Assembly (NCBI RefSeq): GCF_018616375.1
Contig: NZ_JAEQBB010000005.1
Location: 1-64,000 of the forward strand
Length of the DNA stretch: 64,000 nucleotides
DNA from: Exiguobacterium sp. J17977
GTDB lineage: Bacteria; Bacillota; Bacilli; Exiguobacteriales; Exiguobacteriaceae
Direction: 5' to 3'
The translations under genes were made by a program, and so were the position numbers. Of this stretch, positions 42,985 to 51,503 are shown piece after piece (position 1 is the stretch's first letter; each line of letters begins with the position of its first letter). The notes beneath the pieces are model-generated. The model had not been told where the DNA came from, searched no databases, and saw nothing but the letters and a program-made list of their open reading frames with translations.

Positions 42985-44634
42985 TCACACTTTATACACT
43001 TGCGCTTCGTACGGACGAAGCGTGAACGGCTCGATCGGTTCCATGTTCCCAATCACCCGCTCTTTCACGTCGAATGGGAGCTCACGCGTCACCGTCTCAG
43101 CTGAGAAGTTGCAGAGCGCGAGCCACGTCTCGCCTTCGAACGTACGTGTAAAGGCGTATACCGCTTCATCGTCCGGCAGCAACAGTTCATACTTCCCGTA
43201 AACGACAATCGGATGTTGTTTCCGGAGCTGAATCAACTGACGATAGTAATGGAAGAGCGAGTCCGGATCACGCCGGGCCGCTTCCGCGTTCACGGTCACA
43301 TAGTTCGGGTTGACCCCGATCCAAGGCGTGCCGGACGTGAAGCCGCCTTGCGCCTCAGCCGACCACTGGACCGGCGTCCGTGAGTTGTCGCGTCCGCGTG
43401 CGTGAATGCCGCGGAAAATCTCATCATGCGTCAACAATCCATTTGTCGTGTAATCCCGATACGCGTTGAGTGTCTCGATGTCACGGTACTCATCGATCGA
43501 GTCGAACGCCACGTTCGTCATCCCGAACTCTTCACCTTGATAGATGTACGGCGTCCCTTTCAACATGTGGAGAAGCGTCGCCAGCATCTTGCCGGAGACG
43601 ACACGGTACTCATCCGAGTCGTTCCCGAATCGTGAGATGGCTCGCGGTTGATCATGGTTGCTCCAATAGAGACTGTTCCAGCCATCTTCCTCGAGCCCTT
43701 CTTGCCAACGCGAGAAAATCGTCTTCAAGTCCGTCAACTTCCAGTCCGTCGGGTTCCATTTGCCGAAACTACCGTTGCCGACGTCGACGTGTTCGAAGTG
43801 GAACACCATGTTCAATTCGTCACGGTCTGTTCCCGTATAAAGCTTCGCCTCGTCGACGCTGACGCCCGGCATCTCACCGACCGTAATCGTATCGTATTTC
43901 GACAAGACCTCACGATTCATCTCCTGCATGAACTCATGGATGCGCGGCCCGTTGAAGAAGAACGGTGTGCCGTCCCCGTAACCCGTCCCCCGCGTCTCGC
44001 CGTCTGGGTAGCTCGGGTCTTTCGAGATCATGTTGATGACGTCCATCCGGAAACCGTCGACCCCTTTATCGAGCCAGTATGTCATCAAATCGTATACTTC
44101 ACGGCGCAACGTCTCCGACTCCCAGTTCAAGTCTGGTTGCTTTTTGCTGAACAGATGCAAGTAGTATTCGTCGCTCGCCTCATCGTATTGCCACGCACTC
44201 CCTCCGAAGAAAGCGCCCCAGTTCGTCGGCGGCTGACCGTTCTCGCCTTTTTTCCAAATGTAATAGTCCCGATACGGGCTGTCTTTTGAGGAGCGCGACT
44301 CCATGAACCATTGGTGCTCGTCCGACGAGTGGTTGACGACGAGGTCCATCATAATTTTGATGCCGTGACGATGCGCTTCTTCGAGCATCGCATCGAAATC
44401 GTCCATCGTCCCGAACTCATCCATGATGGCACGGTAATCGCGGATATCGTATCCGTTGTCGTCGTTCGGTGAATCGTACACCGGCGATAGCCAGATGACA
44501 TCGATTCCGAGTTCCGCCAAATACGACATCTTCTCGGTGATTCCAGGGATGTCCCCAATCCCGTCACCGTTCGAGTCATTAAAGCTGCGCGGGTAAATTT
44601 GATAGACGACCGCTTCTTTCCACCATTGTTTCAT
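42985..44634 (-). CDS. malL: GH13 alpha-glucosidase (oligo-1,6-glucosidase type)
   Basis: 549 residues, full GH13 fold with catalytic nucleophile Asp198 in GFRMDVIN, acid/base Glu254 in VGEMPG, and transition-state Asp328 in NHDQPR. Region I is MDLVVNHSSDEH. The valine after the nucleophile (DVIN) is a marker of alpha-1,6-active oligo-1,6-glucosidases. Cytoplasmic (no signal peptide); hydrolyses isomaltooligosaccharides, with trehalose-6-phosphate hydrolase as the main alternative. Next to an AraC-type regulator on the other strand. GAGGAGGA precedes the ATG. Confidence 0.88.
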   Translation of the reverse strand: MKQWWKEAVVYQIYPRSFNDSNGDGIGDIPGITEKMSYLAELGIDVIWLSPVYDSPNDDNGYDIRDYRAIMDEFGTMDDFDAMLEEAHRHGIKIMMDLVVNHSSDEHQWFMESRSSKDSPYRDYYIWKKGENGQPPTNWGAFFGGSAWQYDEASDEYYLHLFSKKQPDLNWESETLRREVYDLMTYWLDKGVDGFRMDVINMISKDPSYPDGETRGTGYGDGTPFFFNGPRIHEFMQEMNREVLSKYDTITVGEMPGVSVDEAKLYTGTDRDELNMVFHFEHVDVGNGSFGKWNPTDWKLTDLKTIFSRWQEGLEEDGWNSLYWSNHDQPRAISRFGNDSDEYRVVSGKMLATLLHMLKGTPYIYQGEEFGMTNVAFDSIDEYRDIETLNAYRDYTTNGLLTHDEIFRGIHARGRDNSRTPVQWSAEAQGGFTSGTPWIGVNPNYVTVNAEAARRDPDSLFHYYRQLIQLRKQHPIVVYGKYELLLPDDEAVYAFTRTFEGETWLALCNFSAETVTRELPFDVKERVIGNMEPIEPFTLRPYEAQVYKV

Positions 44635-44748
44635 GTTTCATCCTCCTCATACGTTCTGTCGATTTCATCGTACCCGCTCGTCGCCTTGATTTCTATCCAT
44701 GATATGATGAGAATATGCACGATTTTGCTATTAAGAAAGGATGATTTG

Positions 44749-45528
44749 ATGGAAATCGGCTTTTGTGGCTATTCGTATCATACAACGACCTACACTTTTC
44801 CTTTCCCGAATCGATTGGAGACGTATTTGATTCGTTTGCAGACGGAGGGCACGGCGCGCATCGTCGTCAATGGGAAGACGCATACGGCACGGCCTGGCGA
44901 TTTGTTGCTCGTCAAACCTGGTGACGAGTACGAACTGCATGTCGACACTCCGGCAAGCGGGGACTATCATCTCTTCTGTGATGGTCCGACACTCGATGCA
45001 TGGTGGGCGGCGATCGACCGTTCCCGCATCACGTCCATCTCAATCGACCCTCGCATGCTGTCACTCTGGCAGCATATCACCGAAGAGGCGCGACGCCCGA
45101 CGACTGAACAAAGTCCGGATTTGATTGAGACACTGATTGAAGCCTTGCTTCTCATGCTGGACCGTTCCGTCCAAGAAGTGCAAGCAAACGTGCGGCCCCC
45201 GGTCGTGTCACGCATGATGCGTTATATAGAAGGAAACGTCACAAGCGACTTCAAAGTGGCGGACGTCGCCGACGCGGTCGGGCTCAGTGTATCGCGGACC
45301 GTCCACTTGTTCAAAGAAGTGACGGGTATGACGATTGTCGCCTATGCCCAATCGATTCGACTCCAGCTCGCCGAAGAACAGATGCAGTACACCCAACACT
45401 CTCTCGAACGGATCGCCGAGCTGTCCGGATTCCGCTCCTATCCATATTTTCATCGAATCTTTAAACGAAAATATGGCGTCGCACCAGGGGTTTATCGCAC
45501 ACTTCAACAAAAAAACGAAAAAAAATAA
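44749..45528 (+). CDS. AraC-family regulator with cupin sensor domain
   Basis: 259 residues from the ATG at 44749 (AAAGGATG upstream). N-terminal cupin-like arm (residues about 20-90: TEGTARIVVNGKTHTARPGDLLLVKPGDEYELHV), C-terminal AraC domain with two HTH units: FKVADVADAVGLSVSRTVHLFKEVTGMTIVAYAQSIRLQLAEE and LERIAELSGFRSYPYFHRIFKRKYGVAPGVYR. Divergent from malL, so it likely activates alpha-glucoside use on sensing a sugar. It lies just before the surface-protein/sortase module but the same strand does not prove control of it. Confidence 0.9.
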   Translation: MEIGFCGYSYHTTTYTFPFPNRLETYLIRLQTEGTARIVVNGKTHTARPGDLLLVKPGDEYELHVDTPASGDYHLFCDGPTLDAWWAAIDRSRITSISIDPRMLSLWQHITEEARRPTTEQSPDLIETLIEALLLMLDRSVQEVQANVRPPVVSRMMRYIEGNVTSDFKVADVADAVGLSVSRTVHLFKEVTGMTIVAYAQSIRLQLAEEQMQYTQHSLERIAELSGFRSYPYFHRIFKRKYGVAPGVYRTLQQKNEKK

Positions 45529-45610
45529 AAAAAGAGTGATCCATTTTTTGAACCGCTCCGTTAGATGGGTGTAAACAACGACAACCACTCAAAAAAAGGA
45601 GCGATTACCC

Positions 45611-46951
45611 ATGAAGAAGAAAACAATGAACAAGATTGTAGCACCGGCACTCGCACTCGGCTTACTCGTACCATTGAATGCACAGGCAGCGGATCACGCG
45701 CCGACAGCAAGCACACCAGCAGGTGACTTACGAGCCACGCTCGACCAATTACTGTCTGAGCATTACGTCTTAGCCGTCACATCGATGATGAAAGCTTATG
45801 ATGGAGCACCTGACGCCGAAGTCGCGATGAAGGCCCTCGATCAAAACGCACTCGACATGACACCGGCCATCGCTTCAATTTACGGTGATGAAGGTGCAGC
45901 CCAGTTCGAAGAAATCTTCGCTGATCACAACGACTACTCAGCTGACTTCGTCGAAGCGGCTAAATCAGAAGACAAAGAGCTTCGCGCTGACGCTGAAGCT
46001 GAAGTCGATGAATTCGTCGAAGAGTTCTCAACATTCCTTGATGCAGCAACAGAAGGTAACTTACCAAAAGACGCAGCCGCTGACGTACTTGAGCTTCACG
46101 AAGACCAAGTTCTCTCAGTATTCGACAACTACGTCGCAGGTGATTACGAGTCGGCATACATGACGTACCGCGAAGGGTACAAGCTCATGTTCGACATCAG
46201 TAAAGCCCTCTCAGGCGCAATCGTCACACAGATGCCTGACAAGTTTGAAACTGCTGCTGACACACCGGCCGTCGAGCTTCGTTCAACATTGAACAGCCTT
46301 GCTGGTGAGCACTTCGCCCTCGCAGCAATCGGCATGCAAAAAGGCTACGATCAAGCAGAAGACTTCGACTACGTGAGCTGGGCTGAAGATCAGAACACAC
46401 TCGATTTCAAAGCAGCCATCGGTTCAGTCTATGGTGACGAAGGTGCGGCCCAATTCGAAAAAGTATGGAACGGGAACCACATCACAGCCCAAGGTGACAT
46501 CGTTGCCGCTACACTCGAAGGCGACGAAGCTAAAATTGAAGAAGCACGCATGAAGCTCGACCAGTTCGCTGTCGATTTCAGCACATTCCTCGATGCAGCG
46601 ACAGAAGGTAACTTGCCACAAGAAGCTGGCCAAGAAGCCATCAAACAACATGAGGCCCTCGTGCTTCAAACGTTCGATCAGTATGTAGCTGGTGATGCGG
46701 ATGCCGCTTGGATGTCATTCCGTGAAGGATACGCGTTCATGTTCGGTGTTGGTGAGACACTCGGTAACGCGATCGTGACACAAATGCCTGACAAGTTCGC
46801 TGAAACAACAATGCCTGAAGAGATGCCTGAAACAGGTCTCGGTGGTGCACAAGAACAATCAATGAACACGCTCTACGCTGGCCTTGCTGTACTTGGCGGA
46901 ATCTTACTCGCCTTCGTAACGCTTCGCAACCGTAAAGTGTCTGAACAATAA
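45611..46951 (+). CDS. Surface protein with duplicated helical domain and MPETG sorting signal
   Basis: 446 residues. Residues 1-26 are a signal peptide (cleavage after LNAQA). Residues about 39-205 and 222-395 are two similar helical repeats, each with the markers S/G-EH-[YF]-x-LA, an A/D-x-DQN, SIYGDEGAAQFE / SVYGDEGAAQFE, an internal N/D-H, FSTFLDAATEGNLP and AIVTQMPDKF; each repeat keeps three histidines at equivalent places. The C-terminus carries MPETG at 405-409, a hydrophobic helix and RNRKVSEQ, a sortase substrate signal with Met in place of Leu. AAAGGAG precedes the ATG. The next gene is a sortase, so the pair is probably a dedicated enzyme-substrate unit. Confidence 0.9.
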   Translation: MKKKTMNKIVAPALALGLLVPLNAQAADHAPTASTPAGDLRATLDQLLSEHYVLAVTSMMKAYDGAPDAEVAMKALDQNALDMTPAIASIYGDEGAAQFEEIFADHNDYSADFVEAAKSEDKELRADAEAEVDEFVEEFSTFLDAATEGNLPKDAAADVLELHEDQVLSVFDNYVAGDYESAYMTYREGYKLMFDISKALSGAIVTQMPDKFETAADTPAVELRSTLNSLAGEHFALAAIGMQKGYDQAEDFDYVSWAEDQNTLDFKAAIGSVYGDEGAAQFEKVWNGNHITAQGDIVAATLEGDEAKIEEARMKLDQFAVDFSTFLDAATEGNLPQEAGQEAIKQHEALVLQTFDQYVAGDADAAWMSFREGYAFMFGVGETLGNAIVTQMPDKFAETTMPEEMPETGLGGAQEQSMNTLYAGLAVLGGILLAFVTLRNRKVSEQ

Positions 46952-46971
46952 TTCAATAAGGAGGGAGCCCC

Positions 46972-47868
46972 ATGAACAAGCGCCATTTGTTTCTGGCGCT
47001 CTCTCTCTTTTGTTTTGGCTTCTGGACGTGGACGAGCGCCCAAGAATCGTCGTCACCACCTGTAGAAGAAAAACAAATAGAGGAGAGCCCAGATTTATCG
47101 GCTGAATTCTCACTTCTACAGGAAGAGGTGAAGAAGCTCCGATTAGCCGAGGAAGAGGAAAGTGCCAAGGCCGCGACACCCGTCCAACTTCAAATTCCTA
47201 AAATCAAGGTCGACACCGCAATCGAACAGGTCGGCGTACTCGACAACGGACAGATGGGCGTCCCAAAAAACGAGAACCAAGTCGGTTGGTTCGAGCCCGG
47301 CGTCAAGCCAGGCAGTAAAGGGAATGCCGTCATCGCCGGACATGTGGACAGTAAGACCGGCCCCGCCGTCTTCTATGAGCTCGATCAGCTGAAGACAGGC
47401 GATGACGTGACAATTATTGATGAGAATGGCAACACGTTGACGTTTCGTGTCACAAAAACAGAGAATTACGATACGAAAAATGCACCAATCGAAGATATCT
47501 TCGGGGCCACGTCGAGCCGACATTTGAATTTGATCACGTGTTCCGGTACGTTCGGTGACGGCGGTTATGACGAGCGTTTCGTCGTCTATACCGAGCTTGT
47601 CGATACCAAGATCAATACCGAAGTCGAACTTGACGCACCAACGAGCGTCGAACTCCGCGGGAACTTATTGACGTGGCATGCCGTCCGTGACGACGCCGTC
47701 ATCGGCTATCGCGTCTATGAAGTCGTCGACGGTGAAGCGACGCATATCGAAAGTATCCCGTCGCACGCCCGGAAGAGCATCGAAGTCACGAACGAGCAGG
47801 CAGCTTATTATGTGACAGCGATCGATCAACTCGGGAACGAGTCGAGTCCTTCTCAAGAGACGAAATAA
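46972..47868 (+). CDS. Class F-type sortase with C-terminal FN3-like domain
   Basis: 298 residues. An N-terminal signal-anchor (FLALSLFCFGFWTWTSA), a coiled-coil stalk (about 30-62), then a sortase beta-barrel (residues about 70-215): IPKIKVDTAIEQVG...GVPKNENQVGWF, catalytic His124 in AGHVDSKTGPAVFYEL, Cys190 in ITCSGTFGDGG and Arg202 in YDERFVVYTEL. The GHVDSxTGPAVF motif and the short loops match class F sortases. Residues about 220-298 (DAPTSVELRGNLLTWHAV...YYVTAIDQLGNESSPS) look like one FN3 domain, which is not usual in sortases. The gene follows its MPETG-bearing neighbour by 20 bp; AAGGAGGG precedes the ATG. Confidence 0.9.
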   Translation: MNKRHLFLALSLFCFGFWTWTSAQESSSPPVEEKQIEESPDLSAEFSLLQEEVKKLRLAEEEESAKAATPVQLQIPKIKVDTAIEQVGVLDNGQMGVPKNENQVGWFEPGVKPGSKGNAVIAGHVDSKTGPAVFYELDQLKTGDDVTIIDENGNTLTFRVTKTENYDTKNAPIEDIFGATSSRHLNLITCSGTFGDGGYDERFVVYTELVDTKINTEVELDAPTSVELRGNLLTWHAVRDDAVIGYRVYEVVDGEATHIESIPSHARKSIEVTNEQAAYYVTAIDQLGNESSPSQETK

Positions 47869-47914: not shown

Positions 47915-48622
47915 TTATACGAAACACGGAATCTGCGGGTTAAACGTCTTATTGTTCTCCGTCATGACCTGCTTTTTAATTTTGCCTTCTCCGAGATAGA
48001 CGATACGGTCGGCGAGCGCCTCCGCATCCTCTTCATCGTGGGTAACGAAGATGGTCGTCGTTCCCGTCTGTTTGAGGAGGCGGCGCAAATCGTCCCGAAT
48101 GCGATGTTGGAGCGACGTGTCCAAGTTGCTGAACGGCTCATCCAAGATGAGGAGCGATGGTTTCGGTGCCAACGCACGCGCGAGCGCGACACGCTGTTGC
48201 TGACCACCACTGAGCTCATACGGATAGCGATGACGGAACTCGGACAAGTTCACGAGCGTCAGCATCTCTTCGACACGCTCGTTCCGCTCTTTCCGGCTCA
48301 ATTTATGCAGACCGAAGCGGATGTTCTTCTCAACGGTCATATGCGGGAAGAGCGCATAGTCTTGGAACACCATCCCGACACCACGCTGTTCAGGCGGCAT
48401 GAACTGGCAATCGTCGCAACAGACACAGTCGTTGACGACGACGACGCCTTGATTCGGCATCTCAAGTCCTGCGATGAGGCGTAAAATCGTACTCTTCCCA
48501 GAACCGCTGTCACCGAGAAGCGAGACGATTTCACCTTTCGTGATCGAGATTGAGAATCCTTTAATCGTCTCGGCTTGCGCACCTTTATAGCTGAAGTGTA
48601 AATCGTTGATTTGAACAAACAT
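47915..48622 (-). CDS. fbpC: Ferric iron ABC transporter ATP-binding protein (FbpC-like)
   Basis: 235 residues. Walker A GDSGSGKST, signature ELSGGQQQRVALARAL, Walker B LLILDEPFSNLD, H-loop FVTHDEEDAEALADR; the standard importer ATPase layout of the Fe3+/spermidine/sulphate group but without the long C-terminal regulatory domain. An unusual cysteine cluster (Cys66, 68, 69 and 72 in NDCVCCDDCQF) lies before the Q-loop FQDYALFPHM. It is the last gene of the Fur-controlled iron operon and overlaps the permease stop by one base (TAATG). Confidence 0.9.
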   Translation of the reverse strand: MFVQINDLHFSYKGAQAETIKGFSISITKGEIVSLLGDSGSGKSTILRLIAGLEMPNQGVVVVNDCVCCDDCQFMPPEQRGVGMVFQDYALFPHMTVEKNIRFGLHKLSRKERNERVEEMLTLVNLSEFRHRYPYELSGGQQQRVALARALAPKPSLLILDEPFSNLDTSLQHRIRDDLRRLLKQTGTTTIFVTHDEEDAEALADRIVYLGEGKIKKQVMTENNKTFNPQIPCFV

Positions 48623-50268
48623 TAGTCGGCCTCCTTATCAAGCACCTTATGGAACACAAAGATCAACAGTCCGCTCATGAGCACGATGACGATTGAGGCG
48701 AGCGCGGCCTCATGTATCTTCTCGTCACTGACATATTTGAACGCCTGTGTGGCGAGCGTCGAAAAATTGAACGGCTGCAGGAACAGCGTCAGCGGCAATT
48801 CTTTCATAATATCGATAAAGACGAGGATGAACGCGCTCATGATTGCCCCTTTAATCATCGGGATGTCGACTCGGAAGAACGTCTGCACCGTCCCCCACCC
48901 GAGCATGCGCGACGCTTCCGTGAACGACTTGCCGACTTTCTCAAATCCACTCTCGATCGAGTTATAGCCGATGGCGAGGAAGCGGATGACGTAGGCGAAG
49001 ATGAGCATGATGAGCGTCGTCCTGAACACGAACGTCTGGCCTAAATCCAAGGCGAGCGCCACGTTCAGCACCCACTCATCAAGCAGCAAGAACAACGTGA
49101 TGACGGCGATGGCGATGGCCGCTCCCGGAATCGAATAGCCGAGCGTCGTCACTTTCGAGATGACGCGTGTCATGTTCGACGGGAACAGGCGCGTGTAGTT
49201 CGCAATGATGAGCGCGAACACGAGAATGATCACGGTCGCAATGAACGCCACGCTCACCGTGTTCCAGACGAGGCGGAAAAACTCGGCCGTGAACACTTGT
49301 TCGAACGTCAATACCGTCCAAGCGACGAGCTGCACGAACGGGATGAGGAACGCGACGGCGAAGATGGTCGCCACATAGCCGAACACGGCGTAGCGGTGCC
49401 ACCCGGTCAATTGTCTCGGCTTGAGCGGCTTCACTTTTGTCGTCGCATAGCTGAACTGCTTCCGCCCTCGGACGAGCCGTTCCATCGTCAAGATGGCGAT
49501 GACGAGAATCATGAGCGTCCCGGCGAGTTTGAGCGCCGAGGACGTATCTTTCATCCCGAACCATGTACTGAAGATGGCCGTGCTGAACGTCTGAATCCCG
49601 AAGTATTTGACGACCCCATAGTCGTTCAATACTTCCATCAAGACGAGGCTGACCCCACCGATGATGGCGACACGCGAAATCGGGATGACGACGGTGAAGA
49701 AGATGTCCCACGAGCCGCGGCCGAGGATACGGGCGTTCTCAATCATCGAGGACGATTGATTGTGCAGGAAGGCCCGCGTGATCGTGTAAATGTATGGGTA
49801 CAAGAACAGTGTGAAGATGAACACCGTCCCTTGAATCGTCATGATGTTGAAGTACGTCTGGTCGACGGTGATGCCGAACTCATTGCGCAGCGTCGTCTGA
49901 ATGACGCCCGTATAGTTCAAGATGCCGTGATACGTATATCCCCCGATGTAAGGCGGGATAGCGAGCGGTAAGATGAGCGCCCATTTGAAGAACCGACGGA
50001 ACGGAAAGTCATAGACAGTGACGAACCAGGCCAGGCTCGTCCCGATGATGGTCGTCAACAATCCGGTCGCGAGCATGATGAACAGCGTATTGCGCACGTA
50101 AGTCGGCAACAAGTACTCGCGGATGTGTTGCCAGTTGTCGTTGACCGGTGCGAACAGTTCGACCAAGACGACGACGCCTGGCAGGACGATGAACACCAGC
50201 GCGATAAAGCTGAGGATGGCCCATCCATTCAGTTGTCGTTTCAGCGCGTACCAGTTCATGTCGTACAA
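48622..50268 (-). CDS. fbpB: Ferric iron ABC transporter permease (FbpB-like, fused)
   Basis: 548 residues with two homologous halves of about six helices, each ending in the EAA-loop: SSSMIENARILGRGSWDIFFTVVIPI and SFTEASRMLGWGTVQTFFRVDIPMIKGA, as in the single-chain Fe3+ permeases of the FbpB/SfuB/AfuB type. It transports ferric ions delivered by the binding protein through the membrane. The start MYDMNWYALKRQ follows GGGAGTTG in the - direction; an internal ATG four codons in is an alternative. Confidence 0.9.
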   Translation of the reverse strand: MYDMNWYALKRQLNGWAILSFIALVFIVLPGVVVLVELFAPVNDNWQHIREYLLPTYVRNTLFIMLATGLLTTIIGTSLAWFVTVYDFPFRRFFKWALILPLAIPPYIGGYTYHGILNYTGVIQTTLRNEFGITVDQTYFNIMTIQGTVFIFTLFLYPYIYTITRAFLHNQSSSMIENARILGRGSWDIFFTVVIPISRVAIIGGVSLVLMEVLNDYGVVKYFGIQTFSTAIFSTWFGMKDTSSALKLAGTLMILVIAILTMERLVRGRKQFSYATTKVKPLKPRQLTGWHRYAVFGYVATIFAVAFLIPFVQLVAWTVLTFEQVFTAEFFRLVWNTVSVAFIATVIILVFALIIANYTRLFPSNMTRVISKVTTLGYSIPGAAIAIAVITLFLLLDEWVLNVALALDLGQTFVFRTTLIMLIFAYVIRFLAIGYNSIESGFEKVGKSFTEASRMLGWGTVQTFFRVDIPMIKGAIMSAFILVFIDIMKELPLTLFLQPFNFSTLATQAFKYVSDEKIHEAALASIVIVLMSGLLIFVFHKVLDKEAD

Positions 50269-50352
50269 CTCCCGTTCTTTCGTTCAGTCACTTCCTGTCC
50301 CATCATATCAGGTTCAACGCTCTCGTTGTACCGCTAGCGTGTCGAGAAACGC

Positions 50353-50388
50353 AAAAATCTTCGGCCTGAACGTTCGTTCAAGCCGAAG
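50353..50388 (-). terminator. Attenuating terminator between the binding-protein and permease genes
   Basis: CTTCGGC-t-TGAAC...GTTCA-g-GCCGAAG with an ATTTTT tail on the - strand. Placed inside an operon, it can make more binding-protein mRNA than permease mRNA. Confidence 0.75.
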
Positions 50389-50393
50389 TCTTC

Positions 50394-51464
50394 TTATTTC
50401 CAGCCCGCTTCGTTGAAGAGACGGATGGCTTCTTGTTGGTGCTCTCCAAGTGCCGAGAGGTTGATGTCCTGTTCTTTGAACTCACCCCATGATTGGAGGA
50501 GTTCGTTCGGTTCAACCGATTCGTTGACCGGATACTCATAGTTCGCGCTCGCGAACTGTTCTTGTGCTGACGGGTCAGACATGAATTCCATGAGTTTCTT
50601 CGCGTTGTCTGAGTTCTTCGATGCTTTTGTCATCGCGATTCCTGAGATGTTCACGTGTGTCCCCGTCGTGTCTTGGTTCGGGAAGAAGACGCCGAGTTGC
50701 TCAGCGACTTTCTTCTCTTCCGCGTCTTCCGAGTTCAACATGAGACCCATATAGTAGGTGTTCATGATGGCGACATCACCTTCACCGGCCACGACTGCTT
50801 TCGCTTGGTCACGGTCGTTCCCTTGTGGGTCGCGTGCAAAGTTGTTGACCATACCTTTCGCCCATTCTTTTGCCTGGTCGACACCGTTCACTTCGATGAA
50901 CGAGGCGAGGAGCGAGATGTTGTACATGTTCTCAGACGGACGGACGAGTACTTTGCCGTTCCACTGTTCTTCCGTGAGTGCTTCATACGTTGACAAGTCT
51001 TCTGGTTTTACGCGGTCTTTCGCATAGACGATGACGCGGGCCCGTTTCGTAAGACCGAACCATTCTTTATCCGTGTCACGGTATTTCTCAGGGACATTCG
51101 ACTCAAGCACGTCGCTATCGACCGCTTGCAGATGTCCCGCTTCTTTCGCTTGATACAAGTTCCCGGCATCCGCCGTGATGAAGAGATCGGCTTCCGTGTT
51201 GTCGCCTTCTGTGTTCAAACGCTCGAGCAACTCATCGCTCTTCCCTTCGACGACGTTGACTTTCACGCCTGTCTCTTCTTCGAACTGCTTGTAAAGCTCT
51301 TTATCGACATCATAGTGACGGCTCGAGTAAACGTTAACGACTTTTGACTCTTCTGCTGTCTCGTTGTCGCTTGAAGTCGTCGTTTCTTCTGTGCTGGCGC
51401 AAGCCGCAAGAAGCGATGTTGTGAGCGCAGCCGAGAGGCCGAGTGCCATGTACTTTTTGTTCAT
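50394..51464 (-). CDS. fbpA: Ferric iron ABC transporter substrate-binding lipoprotein (FbpA-like)
   Basis: 356 residues from the ATG at 51464 (GGGGGAT upstream; an ATG at 51479 is weaker). Lipoprotein signal with lipobox LLAAC at Cys22. Class II periplasmic-binding fold with VYSSRHYDVDKELYKQFEEETGVKVNVVEG and two Tyr-containing segments (e.g. MNTYYMGLMLN) that in relatives coordinate Fe3+ (Tyr-Tyr dyad). Attached to the outer face of the membrane. Upstream are two Fur boxes; an intra-operon terminator follows. Confidence 0.92.
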   Translation of the reverse strand: MNKKYMALGLSAALTTSLLAACASTEETTTSSDNETAEESKVVNVYSSRHYDVDKELYKQFEEETGVKVNVVEGKSDELLERLNTEGDNTEADLFITADAGNLYQAKEAGHLQAVDSDVLESNVPEKYRDTDKEWFGLTKRARVIVYAKDRVKPEDLSTYEALTEEQWNGKVLVRPSENMYNISLLASFIEVNGVDQAKEWAKGMVNNFARDPQGNDRDQAKAVVAGEGDVAIMNTYYMGLMLNSEDAEEKKVAEQLGVFFPNQDTTGTHVNISGIAMTKASKNSDNAKKLMEFMSDPSAQEQFASANYEYPVNESVEPNELLQSWGEFKEQDINLSALGEHQQEAIRLFNEAGWK

Positions 51465-51503
51465 TTCATAATCCCCCACTTATTCATCTCTATTAGTTGG
51501 TAA

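Follow-up and report, generated by a model that had tools for sequence, protein, structure and literature searches.

Gene organization of the locus

We analyzed a window of 64,000 nucleotides from Exiguobacterium sp. J17977 (contig NZ_JAEQBB010000005.1, positions 1 to 64,000 of the forward strand), focusing on two adjacent plus-strand open reading frames (ORFs). The first (45611-46951) encodes a protein of 446 residues and the second, which begins 20 bp further on (46972-47868), a sortase of 298 residues. An initial annotation, made from the sequence alone, had described the pair as an MPETG-bearing protein with two helical repeats of three histidines each and a neighboring sortase; the ORFs, their spacing and, in an AlphaFold2 model, the repeats are indeed as described. 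The pair and its upstream region contain the following features.

45536..45564, plus strand: predicted promoter of the extracytoplasmic function (ECF) type, GTGATCCA-N15-CGTTAG (-35/-10), 46 nt before the start codon (motif conservation)
45611..46951, plus strand: putative wall-anchored double helical-repeat histidine protein (ORF, AlphaFold2 model, family alignment)
45611..45691, plus strand: signal peptide, residues 1-27 (read by eye without a predictor; low predicted local distance difference test (pLDDT) values at residues 1-28)
45716..46231, plus strand: repeat 1, residues 36-207, with His51, Asn79, Tyr91-Gly92, His106, His163 and Met193 (model and alignment)
46265..46783, plus strand: repeat 2, residues 219-391, with His234, His290 and His347 (model and alignment)
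46823..46948, plus strand: sorting signal MPETGLGG, hydrophobic stretch and basic tail (sequence)
46972..47868, plus strand: class F-like sortase with FN3-like tail, 298 residues (Pfam, NCBIfam, model)
47179..47610, plus strand: sortase domain, residues 70-213, with His124, Cys190 and Arg202
47635..47865, plus strand: FN3-like C-terminal domain, residues 222-298 (strand-rich, pLDDT 87-95 per block of ten; fibronectin profile match)

The repeat protein and its family

The 446-residue protein has seven histidines, namely H29 and six within the repeats, where they are spaced by 55 and 57 residues in repeat 1 (positions 51, 106 and 163) and by 56 and 57 residues in repeat 2 (positions 234, 290 and 347). 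In the AlphaFold2 model, built from a 40-sequence alignment, both repeats are all-helical, with pLDDT values of 81-98 per block of ten over residues 31-400. By sequence reading, the protein displays the features of a sortase-anchored wall protein: a signal peptide, a C-terminal PxTG motif, a hydrophobic stretch and a positively charged tail. The Gram_pos_anchor profile scored 16.7 bits in the genome scan, below its cut-off of 20. A Pfam scan of the protein returned no family, including no enzyme or metal domain. Searches with the repeats gave no fold match in Foldseek and VIA and neither a trustworthy match nor a clear fold in a PDB sequence search; novelty of the fold does not follow from either result.

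To characterize the family, we aligned 199 repeats from 102 proteins of the fetched loci, an unthinned set in which 191 repeats are distinct and many are close relatives. Positions H51, Y91 and H163 are invariant in all 199, and G92 varies once. Position 106 is His in 188 repeats and Gln in 11. At position 79, 187 repeats have Asn, 11 have His and a single one has Asp, whereas Met193 is retained in 183. The same residues (H51, N79, the YG pair, H106 and H163) are kept in an 11-sequence alignment of single-repeat relatives from Bacilli, Nocardioides, Methylocystis and Bradyrhizobium, so that conservation in the family spans three phyla. Judged by these alignments, the histidine pattern of the repeats is more than chance. 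A profile of the family, single-repeat forms included, matched in 141 of the 398 sampled genomes of the class.

Pfam scans of family members convincingly matched no domain across the repeats. Annotated relatives carry the names 'copper amine oxidase' or 'glycosyltransferase'. The PF07833 domain is present in four of 40 scanned relatives, including L105, L106 and L108 (which are devoid of a sorting signal), and absent from another such relative, L109; the 'copper amine oxidase' label of relatives on Planococcus plasmids probably comes from this domain. The Planococcus plasmid proteins so labeled have the double repeat of the window protein. Unlike the PF07833-bearing relatives, the window protein has no Pfam match to PF07833, nor to a catalytic amine oxidase domain, and does not belong with the copper amine oxidases. 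Single-repeat copies on plasmids are annotated as glycosyltransferase or hypothetical, and their neighbors outside Bacilli include NnrS, ctaD, fdxA and sigma factors. The proteins without a sorting signal at L105-L108 and L195-L206 (genome family f4, presumably Paenibacillus-like) fall into two separate tree branches, so the wall anchor may have been swapped more than once.

A class F-like sortase with an FN3-like tail

The second protein matches the Pfam Sortase family (8.4e-26) as well as sortase folds, and its catalytic H124, C190 and R202, already noted in the initial annotation as a complete triad, are invariant in a 24-sequence alignment. Class F (NF033748) is the best-matching sortase class in NCBIfam (149.2 bits, 7e-44, versus 1.6e-12 for class E). 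However, the score is below the curated cut-off of 166 bits, which is reached in none of the 398 genomes of the class, and hence we call the enzyme class F-like; the original assignment to class F stands as regards the nearest class and fails at the cut-off. Like class F sortases, the enzyme has the catalytic His, Cys and Arg and a core of ~150 residues; unlike them, it lies under the curated cut-off and carries an FN3-like tail. Class F sortases were first studied in Propionibacterium (Cutibacterium) acnes (cited in PMC13257024 and PMC13251363), for which LPXTG is reported as the partner motif (PMC13257024), as compared with MPETG in the window.

The tail itself had been proposed to be FN3-like. 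Pfam identified no domain in the tail of the window sortase and fn3 in only three of 20 tails, so the assignment is carried by a 20-sequence profile of sortase tails, which matched fibronectin chains in the PDB at 2.5e-6. The designation of the added domain as adhesion-type is unsupported.

We next considered whether such a tail is an ordinary part of class F sortases. Near-identical Exiguobacterium loci and other duplicates were left out of the locus, sortase-tree and promoter sets used here and below. The tree comprised 62 sortases, 42 from repeat-gene loci and 20 from elsewhere. An FN3-like tail occurs on 26 of the 42 versus none of 19 sampled away from repeat genes, these 19 having been hand-picked among the class F matches listed (some long class F frames there were not included). 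The twentieth sortase from elsewhere, that of L121, stops at the end of its sortase domain, and the comparison of tails covers the other 19. The tail is thus not a regular component of the class. All 26 tailed sortases adjoin repeat genes, in a sample for which 42 of 62 were fetched from such loci. In the tree their distribution requires six changes, versus 20 for shuffled labels, and a single origin of FN3-tailed sortases is possible. They accompany one of the two main clades of repeat proteins, the one that includes the window protein.

As for the 19 sortases sampled elsewhere, seven have a DUF4397 partner (MPxTG or APxTG), three a short signal-bearing ORF and nine no recognized partner. The first letter of the ten recognized partner signals is M or A in nine cases and L in one, and a motif other than LPxTG, to which the initial annotation attached some importance, is not special to the window pair.

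Pairing of the sortase with its predicted substrate

We then examined 81 double-repeat loci, of which 58 encode a protein with a sorting signal and 23 a protein without one. A same-strand sortase lies within 500 bp in 41 of the 58 signal-bearing loci versus none of the 23 others. It is downstream of the repeat gene in 40 of the 41, at distances from -41 to 294 bp. The FN3-like tail is found on 26 of the 41 paired sortases and missing from 15, one of which (L111) is split; this sortase is counted here and absent from the tree. Hence, two expectations of the initial annotation do not hold in their strict form: 17 of the 58 signal-bearing loci have no sortase within 500 bp, so the genes are not always adjacent, and the tail is not always fused.

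A degenerate search for PxTGxGG in the Exiguobacterium genome itself matched the DNA at four places, and at two of them the match is a C-terminal sorting signal read in frame. One belongs to the window protein and the other to a DUF4397 protein, and each gene stands beside its own class F-like sortase gene. The second pair (L121, 5449-6904, on C2) has the gene layout of the window pair and a related signal, APDTGQGG, and differs in that DUF4397 domains replace the helical repeats and the sortase has no FN3 tail. Other LPxTG-type candidates are also present in the genome. Overall, the pair is supported as a dedicated sortase-substrate unit, as the initial annotation had proposed, because adjacency is conserved, relatives devoid of a signal have no adjacent sortase and the only two in-frame C-terminal PxTGxGG signals found in the genome are each paired with a sortase.

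Several individual loci may be mentioned. The third sortase of the genome (L001, 1477-2091, on C5) has no identified substrate. Contig C23 (L066, L123) encodes a protein with an LPMTG-type signal and none of the three sortases of the genome. At L111 (6222-6867) the sortase frame beside the repeat gene is split into two ORFs; its genome, G051, is also without RskA_C (see below), and decay of the system there is possible. A 12.3 kb plasmid of Planococcus lenghuensis (L166) bears a repeat protein gene followed by a gene annotated as class F sortase. Four Pseudalkalibacillus-type loci (L048, L049, L059 and L061) have the sorting signal and a promoter with one mismatch, and no sortase match within ~6 kb.

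A conserved predicted promoter and its probable link to an ECF sigma factor

The window copy of GTGATCCA-N15-CGTTAG has no mismatch, and the genome contains no other perfect copy. We scored the seven -35 and six -10 letters of this motif within 200 bp upstream of genes. At least 11 of the 13 letters are found before 60 of 85 repeat genes, a count that is not independent since the scored set includes sequences in which the motif was noticed, versus one of 398 other ORFs taken from 38 of the loci, some of which are perhaps not genes. The same score is reached by none of seven DUF4397 genes and, among the 19 other class F-like sortase genes sampled, by none of the 16 that this control includes. 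The DUF4397 pair is likewise without a promoter of the window type: besides these seven genes of other genomes, the gene at L121 is not above 11/13. Better tests than the 60 of 85 are offered by these control genes, by the search of the whole genome and by the motif copy in front of the sigma operon described below. The shuffle null for the motif keeps single-base content only. An alternative promoter, TGAACC-N16-GTAA, was considered and dropped, as it occurs in four Exiguobacterium sequences and hardly elsewhere, and upstream regions showed GTGATCC...CGTTAG instead. Nine single-repeat relatives (L115, L116, L117, L120, L162-L164, L167 and L168) are devoid of the motif, all nine scoring 8-9.

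The genome has a single RskA_C gene, located on C24 and preceded by an ECF-type sigma gene; it is the only such operon in the genome. A two-mismatch copy of the motif lies 41-69 nt before the start of the sigma gene. With up to two mismatches there are 13 matches in the genome versus 10 for the reversed control, which means that two-mismatch matches are mostly chance; it is by its location that the one in front of the sigma operon carries weight. The apparent target and the sigma operon thus share the predicted two-part promoter, perfect at 45536 and with two mismatches on C24. The C24 sigma factor is homologous (up to 219 bits) to those encoded beside repeat genes in other genomes. A 128-residue ORF similar to ECF sigma factors lies upstream of the sigma/anti-sigma operon on the minus strand (L234, 6361-6747, on C24).

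Co-location and co-occurrence point in the same direction. An anti-sigma homolog is encoded within 3 kb of the repeat gene in 26 of the 81 loci; here and below, sigma, anti-sigma and copper-type neighbors are those that resembled a seed protein, and Pfam served to check ten of the seeds or proteins related to them. In both L062 and L107, Pfam identified an RskA-type anti-sigma factor near the repeat gene, accompanied in L062 by a sigma-70-family factor. Among the 84 double-repeat genomes listed (up to handle G307), 71 are found within the 113 of 297 genomes that have RskA_C; of the 13 others, G051 is shown without it and 12 are either unsampled or without it. In these counts 11 Exiguobacteriaceae missing from the RskA_C set appear as unsampled in one version and as misses in another, and the Fisher test of co-occurrence treats related genomes as independent. 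The one congener without a repeat gene (G001) is also without RskA_C.

Because of the conserved promoter, co-location and co-occurrence, we consider it likely that the window pair is an output of the C24 sigma factor. The 'self-contained' module of the initial annotation overlooks this predicted control. The arrangement resembles SigK-RskA of Mycobacterium tuberculosis in having an RskA_C domain beside a small sigma-70-family factor (PMC7406223). In contrast to SigK-RskA, the window system is found in Bacilli, with GTGATCCA-N15-CGTTAG as its predicted promoter and a sortase operon as its apparent target.

Two further neighborhoods adjoin the pair. A gene for an AraC-type regulator (44599-45528; named from its sequence) ends 7 nt before the predicted promoter. 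After the sortase, convergent genes at 47915-51479 encode what we take, by names likewise given from sequence, to be an iron-type ATP-binding cassette (ABC) transporter. ABC transporter genes beside the pair are common only to the four Exiguobacterium loci compared, and we did not use them as evidence.

What the repeats may bind

The invariant polar set inside the helices suggests a site. A metal is our leading guess for its ligand because copper-protein genes adjoin a minority of the relatives. In 12 genomes of another genus of the same family, a CopC gene follows a second repeat gene at 130-150 bp, and at the one such locus scanned with Pfam it is joined by YtkA and CopD. In Planococcus loci, both plasmid-borne and chromosomal, the repeat gene has a cupredoxin gene within 3 kb. 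CopC- and CopD-like genes are found ~4 kb from the repeat gene in G204. In G161, two repeat copies lie less than 0.5 kb from the two PF00127 genes of the genome and a third stands beside a CopC-like gene. These three copies (L182, L183 and L184) are near-identical, have no sortase in the fetched 13 kb and look like a recent duplication. From this distribution and the conserved residues, a metal or metal cofactor at the repeat site is a tentative proposal to which we give slightly less than even odds; copper in particular is doubtful.

A model of the system and its alternatives

In our reading, the two genes form one operon that acts as an output of an envelope-signaling ECF sigma factor, and we give this reading as a whole a probability of about 0.55. 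An RskA-type anti-sigma factor, encoded elsewhere in the genome, would free the ECF sigma factor upon an envelope signal, and the freed factor would read the promoter at 45536. This step is quite probable in view of the promoter, co-location and co-occurrence data. The 446-residue protein would then be secreted, and the sortase encoded by the next gene would cleave MPETG and join the protein to the cell wall. Transpeptidation of MPETG is the predicted activity of the sortase, and this step is very likely, given that the two genes are neighbors, that the catalytic residues are intact and that relatives devoid of the signal have no sortase gene beside them. The FN3-like tail would probably position the sortase or its dedicated substrate, which is a guess. 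Once displayed on the wall, each repeat may hold one ligand site composed, as conservation suggests, of His51, Asn79, His106 and His163 (in repeat 1 numbering). The first guess for the ligand would be a transition metal, copper before iron or haem, which the protein might buffer or relay at the surface.

A number of observations weigh against this reading. As to its regulatory part, the motif score is at most 10 for 25 of the 85 repeat genes, and only five of 27 neighboring sigma genes reach 11 versus one of 398 other ORFs (12 of 27 versus 19 of 398 at a score of at least 10). G051 has a repeat gene and no RskA_C, and 42 RskA_C genomes are without a double-repeat gene among those listed. As to pairing, the locus L230, which has no complete signal, has a sortase 1.5 kb away. 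As to the metal part, a copper-type gene lies within 4.5 kb in only nine of the 81 loci, leaving 72 without. Of the 50 CopC genes compared (among the matches listed), 37 have no repeat gene near them; among the 13 that do, 12 come from one genus and amount to one event, and the thirteenth, in G204, is 4 kb off. The three copper associations in G161 possibly represent one duplicated event, and the Exiguobacterium genome itself gave no CopC or PF00127 match. Finally, a hand count along the helices indicates that H51, N79, H163 and M193 may lie at about one height, with H106 further off.

The nature of the repeats leaves room for two other interpretations. The repeat protein might have a structural or adhesive function in the wall, its histidines serving only to stabilize helical bundles, as would fit wall anchoring, the presence of two repeats and the absence of any Pfam enzyme or metal domain from the window protein. 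However, across three phyla most of the sequence diverges and a few polar positions do not change at all; a protein with nothing but a structural role would not usually show this pattern, and we regard this explanation as unlikely. Instead of handling copper, the repeat protein might also bind haem at the cell surface or respond there to a gas. Ligation of haem by His and Met in helical bundles is known, and M193 is kept in most repeats beside the His residues. Moreover, NnrS, ctaD, fdxA or DUF2249 genes are found within ~8 kb of the single-repeat genes carried by plasmids of Methylocystis, Nocardioides and Bradyrhizobium, and these neighbors presumably point to respiration or nitric oxide handling. 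Yet only three such neighborhoods were looked at and they differ, and the window protein, being devoid of cysteine, has no CXXCH motif. No haem-protein fold match stands out in the Foldseek and VIA searches, which excludes nothing. Taken together, a haem or gas role appears distinctly unlikely.

The other two alternatives concern the partners of the repeat protein. If it were the sensor of the sigma pathway, a protein that binds the signal in the wall and in turn acts on the anti-sigma protein, the closeness of sigma and anti-sigma genes to the repeat gene in many loci and their strong co-occurrence would be accounted for. On the other hand, the repeat gene itself carries a sigma-type promoter, as regulon members do, and wall anchoring would place the protein away from a membrane anti-sigma factor, rendering this role improbable. 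The adjacent sortase might instead be a general housekeeping enzyme of the class F type, its pairing with the repeat gene being incidental. The 17 signal-bearing loci without a nearby sortase, whose proteins must use another sortase or none, would agree with this, as would the other LPxTG-type candidates of the genome. Against it stand the two in-frame C-terminal PxTGxGG proteins, each next to its own class F-like sortase, the complete lack of nearby sortases among the 23 relatives devoid of a signal and the restriction of FN3 tails to sortases beside the repeat family (in a sample drawn mostly from such loci). We consider incidental pairing very improbable, and retain the operon under ECF sigma control, with its dedicated sortase, as the preferred reading.

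Significance for class F-type sortases and Bacilli

Sortase-substrate pairs, class F sortases, FN3 domains and ECF/RskA pairs are each of an already known kind. Searches of the open-licence literature in PubMed Central turned up neither the pair described here nor the combination of these elements, and likewise nothing on the repeat family, on an FN3-tailed sortase or on the predicted promoter; any of them may be published elsewhere. In its broadest form, the proposal is an as yet undescribed ECF sigma/RskA regulon in Bacilli that would mainly produce a wall-displayed histidine-site protein, representing a new domain family, which handles copper or another metal and is mounted by its own FN3-tailed class F-like sortase. 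Taken as a whole, it is more apt to be wrong in some part than right. The FN3-tailed sortase may serve as a tool enzyme with an unusual motif. According to a 2026 paper (PMC13251363), the physiological roles of class F sortases are unknown. At this locus, in culturable environmental Exiguobacterium, such an enzyme has a defined partner, and both a promoter and a regulator can be predicted; if the proposal is true, it would provide class F-type sortases with a physiological role and an inducer.

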